A DNA stretch of 64,000 bases from Oceanibaculum indicum P24 (lineage in GTDB: Bacteria; Pseudomonadota; Alphaproteobacteria; Oceanibaculales; Oceanibaculaceae). Location of the stretch: the NCBI RefSeq assembly GCF_000299935.1, contig NZ_AMRL01000003.1, positions 124,001 through 188,000 of the forward strand. Reading direction: 5' to 3'. Shown here in pieces: positions 37,079-39,176 of the stretch (position 1 is its first letter; every line of letters begins with the position of its first letter). The translations under genes were made by a program, and so were the position numbers. The notes below the pieces were generated by a model. It was not told the origin of the DNA and did no database searches. It saw nothing but the letters and a program-made list of their open reading frames with translations.

Positions 37079-37720
37079 CTATTCTGGCAGGGCCTGAAGC
37101 AGCTCGGCGGCGCGGGCGCGGGCAGCCTGCGGCGCTTCCAGATCGTCGGTCACCTGGCGCAGCAGCGCGCGTGCCTCCGCCCGGTTGCCCTGGGATTCCG
37201 CCGCCAGTGCCGTCAGTTCGCGCGCCAGATGGCGCCAGGGGCTGGTGCCCTCGACCAGGGTCGCCAGGTGCGCCTTCACGGCGGCAGCCTCGCCCGCTTC
37301 CAGCCGGCGCTGACCACCCAGCACCAGCGCCAGGTCGCGCAGCGACTGGGGAGCGGCGGCATCGCCGGCCAGCGCGTCCAGGGATGCAATTGCCTCCGCG
37401 CGCTTTTCCTGCTGCCACAGCAGGCCCGCCTGCTCCAGCCGAGCCAGTGCGGCATAGCCGGAGCCGCCCGACTGCGCCAAGGCGGCAAACCGGTCTGCCG
37501 CCTGGTCATTCTGCTCACCGACGAGGGCCACCGCCGCCGCATAGCTCTGCGCCGCTTCGGCCTGCTGGCGGGACTGGTATTCCTTCCAGCCGACATAGCC
37601 GGCGGTTCCCAGCAGCAGCGCCGCCACGCCGCCCACGATCAGGTACCGGTAGCGCGACCAGACGCGCTTCAGATTGTCCTGACGAAGTTCCTCGTCGATT
37701 TCGCGAAAAATATCGGCCAC
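37079..37720 (-). CDS. YfgM-like tetratricopeptide membrane protein
   Basis: This protein of about 213 residues starts with GTG at 37718-37720 (VADIFREIDEELRQDN), the typical start of the family. One membrane helix lies at about 27-45, then helical repeats of TPR type rich in Ala and Leu fill the periplasmic part. YfgM works with PpiD and the Sec translocon in protein export. It sits immediately upstream of bamB. The longer frame to 37879 would overlap a mobile-element-like repeat and was not chosen. Confidence 0.85.
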   Translation of the reverse strand: MADIFREIDEELRQDNLKRVWSRYRYLIVGGVAALLLGTAGYVGWKEYQSRQQAEAAQSYAAAVALVGEQNDQAADRFAALAQSGGSGYAALARLEQAGLLWQQEKRAEAIASLDALAGDAAAPQSLRDLALVLGGQRRLEAGEAAAVKAHLATLVEGTSPWRHLARELTALAAESQGNRAEARALLRQVTDDLEAPQAARARAAELLQALPE

Positions 37721-37837
37721 GGGCAAGCTTCTCGCTAACGGGAGGACCGGATCGGTCCGAAAGCGGCGTAAGGTAGCCTCCGCGCCCCGGCAATGCAATG
37801 CGAAGCGGTGCCGCACCGGCGAGTTCGCATGCCTTAG

Positions 37838-38101
37838 GTTGTATCGACAGTCAGGGTTGGATCGCGGTATTGAGCGCAAATCGTTCAGTTTCAGGAGTCA
37901 AAGCGCAGGAAGGGTCGTCCCCTTCTAAGCTTTGGCGACGCCAAAATGGGCGATTTGCGCAATATTTCTCCGAAACGCGGCGAATTTTGTCCCTGAATGC
38001 GTTGCGCCCCGCTTGTGGTGGACGGCACCACGGCGCGGTTCGCGCCTGTTCAGGATCAAAATTCGACACGCGCCGCGCCCAAACCTGACTGTCGATACAG
38101 C
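37838..38101. mobile_element. MITE-like element with 23-bp terminal inverted repeats
   Basis: This 264-bp non-coding stretch is bounded by 23-bp inverted repeats matching at 21 of 23 positions: left 37838-37860 (begins GTTGTATCGACAGTCAGG) and right 38079-38101 (complement begins GCTGTATCGACAGTCAGG). It is flanked by TTAG (37834-37837) and CTAG (38102-38105), which fit a YTAR target duplication as made by IS5-family elements, one base diverged. No transposase is inside. A GTGGTG-GACGG-CACCAC hairpin lies near 38015. It separates the YfgM-like gene from the DUF2794 gene. Confidence 0.7.
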
Positions 38102-38178
38102 CTAGGCCTTTACGCTGCCGGCAAATTTGGCAAAACTGTTACATCATCCCCAGACGGAACAGGTGCCGAGACCGCCTT

Positions 38179-38514
38179 ATGAACCAGTTCGTCCACCTGG
38201 CCGACTATCGCAAACAGCGCCGAGGCACCTATTTCAGCCGGTACGAGCTGGGCAGGATACTGGATGTGTACAGCCGCCGCGTCGCCTCGGGCGAATGGCG
38301 CGATTATGCCATCGACCATGACGGCCAGGTCGCCAGTTTCTCGATCTTCCGCCATACCCACGAACGCCCGATCTTCGCCATCCTGAAATGCAACAAAGGG
38401 CCGCAGCGCCCGGTGGACTATCTCCTGGTCAGCGGCAAGCAGCAGCTGAAGCGCGCTTCCACGCTGGAGGAAATTCTTGCCGCCTTCGACCGCCGCCTTG
38501 AAGTGGTCCGCTAA
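38179..38514 (+). CDS. DUF2794 family protein
   Basis: This 111-residue soluble protein matches the DUF2794 family of alphaproteobacteria: HLADYRKQRRGTYFSRYEL at the start, then SGEWRDYAIDHDGQVASFSIFRHT, and a C-terminal helix. The function is unknown. It is short, basic and shows no membrane segment. The gene lies 77 bases after the MITE-like element and is the first of a rightward series. Confidence 0.82.
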   Translation: MNQFVHLADYRKQRRGTYFSRYELGRILDVYSRRVASGEWRDYAIDHDGQVASFSIFRHTHERPIFAILKCNKGPQRPVDYLLVSGKQQLKRASTLEEILAAFDRRLEVVR

Positions 38515-38597
38515 GGCCGCACGCTGAAACGGCGGCAGGATCGACGCCGCACCCCGCATCCGCTATTGTCTGGCGCGATCCTTGCTTGGCTCAGAAC

Positions 38598-39176
38598 ATG
38601 AGCCGATACGCAACAGGTGCCAGAGCAGACATGTCGCAATCTCCCTATCGAAGCGGCGCGCCGGCAGGCCGTCCGCCCCGGCATGTGCCCATGCCGCCGC
38701 TGAAGATCGCCCCGGCGCGGGAAGCCCCGCGCCCGAAGAAGCCGCGCGCCGACATGTCGCATGACGAGCGGGCGGCGGAGATCGTCGATCATCTGCGCGA
38801 CGCCATCGAGAGCCGCAAGGATGGCGGCGAGAAGGCCGGCGGCATGTCCTACCGCGACTGGCGCAAGCTGGCGCAGCAGGAAATCGCCGAGGCGCTGCGC
38901 GATACAGCACTGCGCGCCGCCATCGGCGAGGTGATGTCGGCCCGGCGCATCGGCAATCTGGCGCTTCGGCTGGGCTTCATGCTGCTGGCCGCCGTCGCCT
39001 CCTTCTTCGCCTTCTGGTTCGGCGTGGTCTGGATCGGCCAGGAATTTGGTGCCGCCTGGAGCACGCTGGCGACCGTCACCGCGCTGCTGCTGACCGGTGC
39101 CTTCATCGCCGGCGGGCTGATGGTCGGCGGCAAGGATGGCGACCCTAAGGACCAGATCGACCCTGACCGGCTGTAA
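38598..39176 (+). CDS. Two-helix membrane protein of unknown function
   Basis: This protein of about 192 residues (start MSRYATGARADMSQ; alternative starts at 38631 and a weak TTG at 38586) has a long hydrophilic N-terminal half with many Pro, Arg and Lys (about 20-60), a helical stretch ending DTALRAAIGEVM, and two membrane helices (about 120-145 and 153-172). The tail KDGDPKDQIDPDRL is acidic. I do not recognise the family. It is not coupled to its neighbours and its function is open. Confidence 0.6.
   Translation: MSRYATGARADMSQSPYRSGAPAGRPPRHVPMPPLKIAPAREAPRPKKPRADMSHDERAAEIVDHLRDAIESRKDGGEKAGGMSYRDWRKLAQQEIAEALRDTALRAAIGEVMSARRIGNLALRLGFMLLAAVASFFAFWFGVVWIGQEFGAAWSTLATVTALLLTGAFIAGGLMVGGKDGDPKDQIDPDRL

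Follow-up and report, generated by a model that had tools for sequence, protein, structure and literature searches.

An inverted-repeat sequence lies between two divergent genes of Oceanibaculum indicum P24, inside a window (the whole stretch of DNA analyzed here) of 64,000 nucleotides. The locus raises the question of whether this sequence belongs to the intergenic region, as a native hairpin, promoter, or terminator would, or arrived there as a mobile element, and, if it is mobile, what moves it and what its interior does. The original prediction described a 264-bp element at 37834-38105 with 23-bp terminal repeats and YTAR-type flanks, moved by an IS5-family transposase and perhaps supplying a promoter or terminator to its neighbors. 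We consider it highly probable that the sequence is an orphan non-autonomous mobile element, a type II MITE with IS427-type ends and a superfamily core that would work as folded DNA.

Anatomy and insertion site of the element

The features of the locus are given below by position in the window, with the evidence for each; G001 is a genome of the same genus, and G031 is from another family of class Alphaproteobacteria.

37079-37720, minus strand: neighboring TPR_21 (YfgM-like) gene, upstream of bamB (Pfam PF09976)
37835-37836, no strand: left-hand TA of the presumed target-site duplication (T-TA-G, YTAR); from the flanks, the empty site in G001, and the YTAR flanks of relatives
37837-38102, plus strand: non-autonomous MITE-like element, 266 bp; from the repeats, fold, empty sites, and relatives
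37837-37860, plus strand: left terminal repeat, IS427-like; with the TA, identical at 18/21 positions to the left end of the insertion sequence in G031
37874-37960, plus strand: left arm, a hairpin with loop AGGAG ... GCGACGC; from the inverted repeat, fold, and A2 alignment
37976-38070, plus strand: right arm, a hairpin, GCGTTG N7 CTTGTGG..CCACGGC..GCGCCT, the basis of model R1; from the inverted repeat and fold
38079-38102, minus strand: right terminal repeat, IS427-like; with the TA, identical at 19/21 positions to the left end of the insertion sequence in G031
38103-38104, no strand: right-hand TA of the presumed target-site duplication; from the flanks and the empty site
38179-38514, plus strand: neighboring DUF2794 gene (Pfam PF10984)

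The presence of an inverted-repeat element at 37834-38105 was confirmed, and its terminal inverted repeats (TIRs), predicted as 23 bp, measured 26 nt at 37835-37860 and 38079-38104, with 92% complementarity and 218 nt between the arms. If TA is the duplicated target, the element occupies 37837-38102 and is 266 bp long; the predicted element stood, and its predicted size of 264 bp did not. Two inner inverted repeats were also present (37976-37997/38049-38070 and 37874-37891/37943-37960), and the single-strand fold consisted of an outer stem and two long arms. Minimum free energy of the plus strand was -148.3 kcal/mol, compared to -92.0 +/- 4.9 kcal/mol for 200 shuffles, none of which was as low (z -11.5); the minus strand folded at -134.1 kcal/mol (z -9.5). 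With 3 or fewer mismatches allowed, a 16-mer of the TIR had four matches in the window, including two exact ones, compared to 0.23 expected. As predicted, there was no coding sequence inside: the longest closed open reading frame within 37835-38104 was 72 amino acids, and it ranged from 10 to 81 amino acids per element in the 41 non-redundant elements described below. A mechanically called frame of 96 amino acids (37798-38088, plus strand) has its start outside the element.

The element is intergenic, and its predicted location between divergent YfgM-like and DUF2794 genes was borne out. The likely GTG start of the TPR_21/YfgM-like gene (37720, minus strand; the start codon that we chose) is 116 bp from the element, and the ATG of the DUF2794 gene (38179, plus strand) is 76 bp from it. 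The bamB call was made with TIGR03300 at 227.5 bits, under the cut-off of 285.2 for that model. Downstream of the DUF2794 gene, a 196-amino acid frame at 38586-39176 had no NCBIfam or Pfam match (E up to 0.001).

A BLAST search with the 1-kb region found the flanking sequence in 4 of 4 genomes of the genus and the element in its own genome alone. The original prediction had called for empty sites in related strains, and the site was empty in 3 of the 3 other genus genomes examined (G001, G002, and G003). When the window flanks were joined with one TA, they aligned through the G001 empty site with a single 1-bp gap; the alignments for G002 and G003 had more gaps because both genomes are more distant. 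The element is a real insertion. Its flanks, T-TA on the left and TA-G on the right, form a YTAR target (a TTAG site), which agrees with the flanks that had been predicted. A YTAR target with duplication of TA marks the IS427 group. TA stands on both sides of the element, and the empty site has a single dinucleotide, TC in G001; because G001 has TC at the TA position, the TA duplication in the window copy is one that we infer.

A long hairpin or bidirectional terminator native to the region would be consistent with the intergenic position between two divergent genes and with the strong hairpin potential of the sequence. However, the site is empty in all three other congeners examined, relatives of the element occupy unrelated sites in many genomes, and the one terminator-like site in the region equals the number given by shuffles (1.0); we regard a native hairpin as exceedingly improbable. 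No promoter-like sites were detected by a scan of the region. Blocks common to the empty-site genomes were intact on both sides, outside the element; these conserved blocks are possibly the two promoters, and the promoter regions of both neighbors appear untouched. A native promoter or terminator element was ruled out by the empty sites and the chance-level scans. The suggestion that the element itself supplies a promoter or terminator was not supported, with no promoter-like site, terminator-like sites at the level of shuffles, and conserved flanking blocks intact.

IS427-type ends and candidate transposases

No second copy of the element was found in its own genome, nor any further match there to the TIR 16-mer at fewer than 3 mismatches. 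The same genome (G000, a draft of 98% completeness) had 0 matches to PF13340, which lowers the probability that the element is active here and not the probability that it is derived from an IS427-type insertion sequence (IS).

We scanned 385 alphaproteobacterial genomes with the TIR pattern, allowing 1 mismatch, and 7 genomes matched, own genome included. G031 had seven TIR-pattern places, all of which were the left end of an IS of 871-939 bp as determined by boundary search. The left end of this IS, TAGGCTGAATCGACATTCAGG, agreed with the window TIRs at 18/21 and 19/21 positions; the right end agreed less (14-17/21). The reading frames of one copy (L226) were PF13340 (DUF4096) and PF01609, and the seven-copy IS is of the IS427 type (IS5 family). 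Single TIR-pattern places were present in four further genomes (L223, L224, L228, and L229). Similarity between the element and the autonomous IS was confined to the TIRs, as is characteristic of type II MITEs, and a strict core motif was found at 0 of 14 loci with the TIR pattern (including all seven from G031) and 0 of 26 PF13340 loci.

Of 20 hosts or records, 10 had a PF13340 match. TIRs were readable at 3 of the 26 PF13340 loci (L198, L202, and L222), and by eye these IS427-type TIRs matched no element of the same host. In Glycocaulis (G192), the TIR of the element found that element and two single one-mismatch places, with no paired IS. A well-matching IS and element were thus not found together in Glycocaulis or in the three readable IS427-type hosts. 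No phage match was found for the window element or for L276, and no plasmid match for L110. In another genome (G343), short elements of about 100 and 260 bp (L225, L230, and L233) had, by eye, the end TAGGYTGAATCGACATTCAGG (one CAGG) and another interior with CCCTCCCCC..GGGGGAGGG repeats, that is, the same ends and a different core.

Taken together, the empty sites, the TA/YTAR flanks, and the IS427-type TIR match support the predicted dependence of a non-autonomous element on an IS5-family transposase, as far as sequence comparison can indicate it. The original prediction had also held that, with no other copy of the repeat and no matching transposase, the sequence might be an ordinary long hairpin. 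Within its own genome, there was indeed no second copy and no IS5-family transposase by PF13340; elsewhere, there were many relatives and, in G031, a matching IS. The anatomy and the matching IS suggest that the element was inserted into a TTAG target, with duplication of the TA, by an IS427-type (IS5 family) transposase that worked in trans on terminal repeats of about 20 bp. The window copy is probably inert, given that its genome yielded no partner transposase domain and that the promoter regions on both sides are apparently untouched.

The two-arm core and its relatives in Pseudomonadota

Relatives were collected with a right-arm pattern run over the species collection, which matched at least 120 stretches. 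A TA-anchored TIR of at least 17/24 was present in 69 of the 120 matches listed, and 48 of these 69 elements, among the matches listed, were 250-275 bp in length. Among the 51 matches dropped, 19 were truncated at a contig end; others were hits in other phyla that lacked a TIR or probable elements in which one end was damaged (such as L095). The TA-anchored scan misplaced the ends of some elements, as judged by eye (L171, L177, L179, L184, and L187). The element set totaled 76, of which 62 were full length and 41 non-redundant. Of these 41, 35 entered the wide alignment, A2; six longer elements (L055, L100, L125, L129, L134, and L147; 282-310 bp) were left out, and L127 (282 bp) was kept. Elements in the tree came from Hyphomicrobiales, Rhodospirillales, and Maricaulales, where the order was known. 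One genome, G082, had several relatives, and full-length relatives on plasmids were found in Terrarubrum flagellatum (72.7%) and Rhizobium sp. SSA_523 (69.1%). The Terrarubrum flagellatum relative sits between two sarcosine oxidase genes; this copy (L057, 2978-3248) lies on the plasmid between the beta and delta genes, apparently inside one operon, and read-through would therefore need to be tolerated.

R1, a covariance model built from the right arm only (34 sequences, 84 positions), was used in searches that covered Pseudomonadota. R1 matched the window at 37981-38064 with 85.6 bits, a score that follows by construction, the window sequence being part of the model. Matches were obtained in 26 of 385 alphaproteobacterial genomes and in 39 of 398 genomes of a phylum sample, 31 of these outside the class; copy numbers are lower bounds, with at most 11 candidates scored per genome. 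There were 47 R1 loci, 40 with enough flank, and the arm lay inside a repeat pair of at least 17/22 in 31 of the 40 (23 of 28 in the class and 8 of 12 outside). The shuffle control, one per locus, reached at most 16/22 (mean 14.2). Two of the 31, L243 (from the window) and L269 (identical to L050), belong to the model, and without them the count was 29 of 38. Plasmid copies in Azotobacter and Halomonas (Gammaproteobacteria) had the same plan with TAGGGYCTGTTGACG ends. The arm motif is spread through Pseudomonadota with changing ends. Shorter forms were also seen by eye: L078, L084, L155, L172, and L194 were 157-170 bp, with ends intact and the right arm only. Outside the class, forms of 124-162 bp (L279 and L285) were one-arm versions of the two-arm plan.

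The TIRs were of three kinds, TAGG.., TAGA.., and TACCA.., and the count of flanking bases takes in 54 of the 69 elements. A pyrimidine preceded the left TA in 19 of 21 TAGG and 14 of 17 TAGA elements, and a purine followed the right TA in 21 of 21 and 15 of 17, respectively. The 16 TACCA elements had A and T at the TA-flanking positions, as part of the repeat. A multicopy end from G082 matched 193 plasmid records, and 14 of the 20 listed were annotated as IS630 family transposase. Two complete IS630 elements, of about 1160 bp, had imperfect terminal repeats (18/24 and 19/24). When compared to the best of five IS630 ends, 42 TACCA element ends agreed at 12-19/22 positions and 84 TAG-kind ends at 3-11/22. 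The elements of G082 agreed with that genome's own IS630-like end at only 14-16/22, the IS having been recovered in part. These data suggest that the ends resemble those of different transposases depending on the member, IS427-type in the window and IS630 in the TACCAA kind.

A core tree was built without the TIR columns, with the TIR kind of L171 and L177 labelled by hand. The three TIR kinds needed 4 changes on this tree, compared to a shuffled mean of 15.7. TIR kind follows the core tree, and exchange of ends would therefore be rare; the ends of these elements appear to have changed, but seldom.

Between TIR kinds, mean identity was 0.35 for the TIRs, 0.41 for the outer stem, 0.49 for the left arm, 0.46 for the right arm without the search pattern, and 0.76 for the left-arm loop columns, which lie outside the search pattern but were picked for looking conserved. 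What crosses from one kind to another is therefore the loop motif and the plan rather than the core as a whole. Inside one TIR kind, there was no difference between the TIRs (0.64) and the arms (0.67 and 0.60). The same base was present in 31-35 of 35 elements at A2 columns 71-73, 75, 76, 114, 115, and 117-120. The two arms aligned as inverted copies of each other (z > 3) in 17 of 35 elements; z was 0.8 for the window copy. The interior of the element places it in a superfamily that many Pseudomonadota carry; members of this superfamily share the plan of two hairpin arms and a fixed loop sequence, and the arms are inverted copies in about half of them.

Folded DNA, RNA, and known repeat families

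The core could be a structured RNA, regulatory or involved in processing, that is carried by a mobile element and has its fold selected in the transcript. The very stable fold (z -11.5) is in keeping with this, as are the pairs with changes on both sides: 52 of 106 when 10 close elements are compared, and 57 of 66 with the 35 elements of A2. If one-strand RNA were selected, G-U pairs should outnumber A-C mismatches. We counted both in the close set (A1), in A2, and, with the same script, in a control of 30 RNase P RNAs. For pairs predicted on both strands, G-U to A-C was 10:14 in A1 and 51:59 in A2, in contrast to 66:16 in RNase P. For pairs predicted on either strand, the counts were 81:41, 168:159, and 291:123, respectively, and the A1 value here favors RNA. 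The RNase P control folded much better on its true strand (-144.5 vs -98.7). A1 folded better on the plus strand (-140.6 vs -129.7), as does the window element itself; however, A2 folded better on the minus strand (-103.2 vs -81.3), and the plus strand was more stable in 27 of 41 elements only. By a crude call of open reading frames, 37 of 52 elements lay between tandem genes and 4 of 52 inside a long frame, which would suit a transcribed element, but the orientation to the tandem genes was the same in 21 and opposite in 16.

Rfam 15 gave three matches in the window, at 11.4-13.1 bits (E up to 5), far under the gathering scores. Among 17 other loci (E up to 0.5), no family covered the element, and two riboswitches were present, one of them overlapping an element end. 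At that locus (L281), the 3' end of a cobalamin riboswitch (1216-1378; 40.1 bits, gathering 31.5) overlaps the left end of the element (approximately 1355-1623), which would fit an insertion of this two-arm element at the riboswitch's downstream end.

The G-U/A-C control lowered the structured RNA reading, which we consider unlikely overall; for the close group of the window, a one-strand RNA retains some probability. On balance, the fold seems to be kept as DNA, as RNA from both strands, or by neutral correction of the palindrome. The near-equal G-U and A-C counts in shared pairs hint at DNA rather than one-strand RNA, less clearly so in A1.

Covariation of the arms could also be neutral, if template switching at imperfect palindromes during replication keeps them complementary and only the TIRs matter. 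Such correction is expected to give Watson-Crick, strand-symmetric pairs, and the shared pairs are nearly all Watson-Crick and strand-symmetric; moreover, conservation within a TIR kind is about the same for the TIRs as for the arms. However, the unpaired left-arm loop is among the best conserved parts of the element (31-35 of 35 at eleven columns), and conserved unpaired loops argue against neutral correction alone because correction would remove them. Right-arm T-G pairs are also constant but are part of the search pattern. The length of 250-275 bp in 48 of the 69 elements, among the matches listed, likewise speaks against a purely neutral account, to which we give a low probability.

According to the explanation that we prefer, a mobile element whose core may work as folded DNA, the nested palindromes would extrude during replication or supercoiling and bring the terminal repeats together, and the conserved loops would be presented to a protein common to many hosts. 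The same core could then be served by whichever transposase recognizes its current ends, and the comparison of relatives suggests that the core changes carriers. An extension of this explanation is that a DNA module of paired hairpin arms with a fixed loop sequence is spread through Pseudomonadota and persists by changing its terminal repeats, carried in some cases by IS5/IS427-type and in others by IS630 (mariner-like) transposases, with the folded DNA as a functional unit binding a conserved host protein that aids the transposases. The extension is weakened because the TIRs equal the arms in conservation inside a kind and because A1 leans toward plus-strand RNA, and we offer it as a tentative and somewhat doubtful possibility.

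MITEs are usually seen as remnants of one insertion sequence that matter for their ends, with a middle that serves as filler. In the present case, the arm motif and the folding plan of the middle cross bacterial classes, and the ends are similar to those used by at least two transposase families that are unrelated. If true, element-bearing genomes would harbor a modular parasite of parasites whose core has a function, and the close balance between G-U and A-C counts would provide a testable case of selection on folded DNA, not RNA. The superfamily could account for part of the unannotated intergenic repeats in element-bearing bacteria.

In the open full-text literature, no description of the two-arm superfamily was found, and the portions used here of five reports on related topics (PMC2229807, PMC3733652, PMC10969869, PMC3189936, and PMC5082802) do not describe the element. 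CIR elements of Caulobacter and Brucella, according to the available part of their description, are intergenic and have two hairpin arms and TA ends (PMC2229807); however, they are about 110 bp, with the TIR marked absent and GANTC at the loop, whereas the window element is 266 bp with a TIR. GANTC occurred 24 times in 41 elements, compared to 38.3 expected, and no column had it in more than 4 of 35. A CIR element was ruled out by the length of 266 bp, the TIR, and the lack of a conserved GANTC. CGTC-tagged REPs are summarized in the portion of their report used here as palindromes of Alphaproteobacteria that have no transposase dedicated to them and occur mostly as head-to-head dimers; they have stems of 8-9 bp, a CGTC foot, and a CCA tail (PMC3733652), in contrast to arms of approximately 85-95 nt inside a TIR-bounded element. 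A CGTC REP was ruled out by this arm anatomy.

MITEPsy1 of Pseudomonas syringae is, in the excerpted description, non-autonomous, assigned to "IS5?", has CTAG or YTAA as its target, and was trapped moving (PMC3189936). It is like the window element in being non-autonomous with a possible IS5 link; however, it is 100 nt, has other TIRs (GGAAGGTCTGAAAAAGCC), and has no two-arm core in that description. Type II MITEs, as characterized in the part of the source consulted, are under 500 bp, have TIRs and no transposase, resemble an IS in the TIRs alone, form stable hairpins, and are normally intergenic (PMC10969869). The window element agrees with them in its size, lack of a transposase gene, TIRs, occupied and empty sites, and copies in other genomes. 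In contrast, a type II MITE family, by the same partial account (PMC10969869), is tied to the ends of one IS, whereas a single arm motif and plan is combined here with ends of several kinds in different classes of bacteria. The general kind of the element, a MITE, is known, and its modular variant is unusual.
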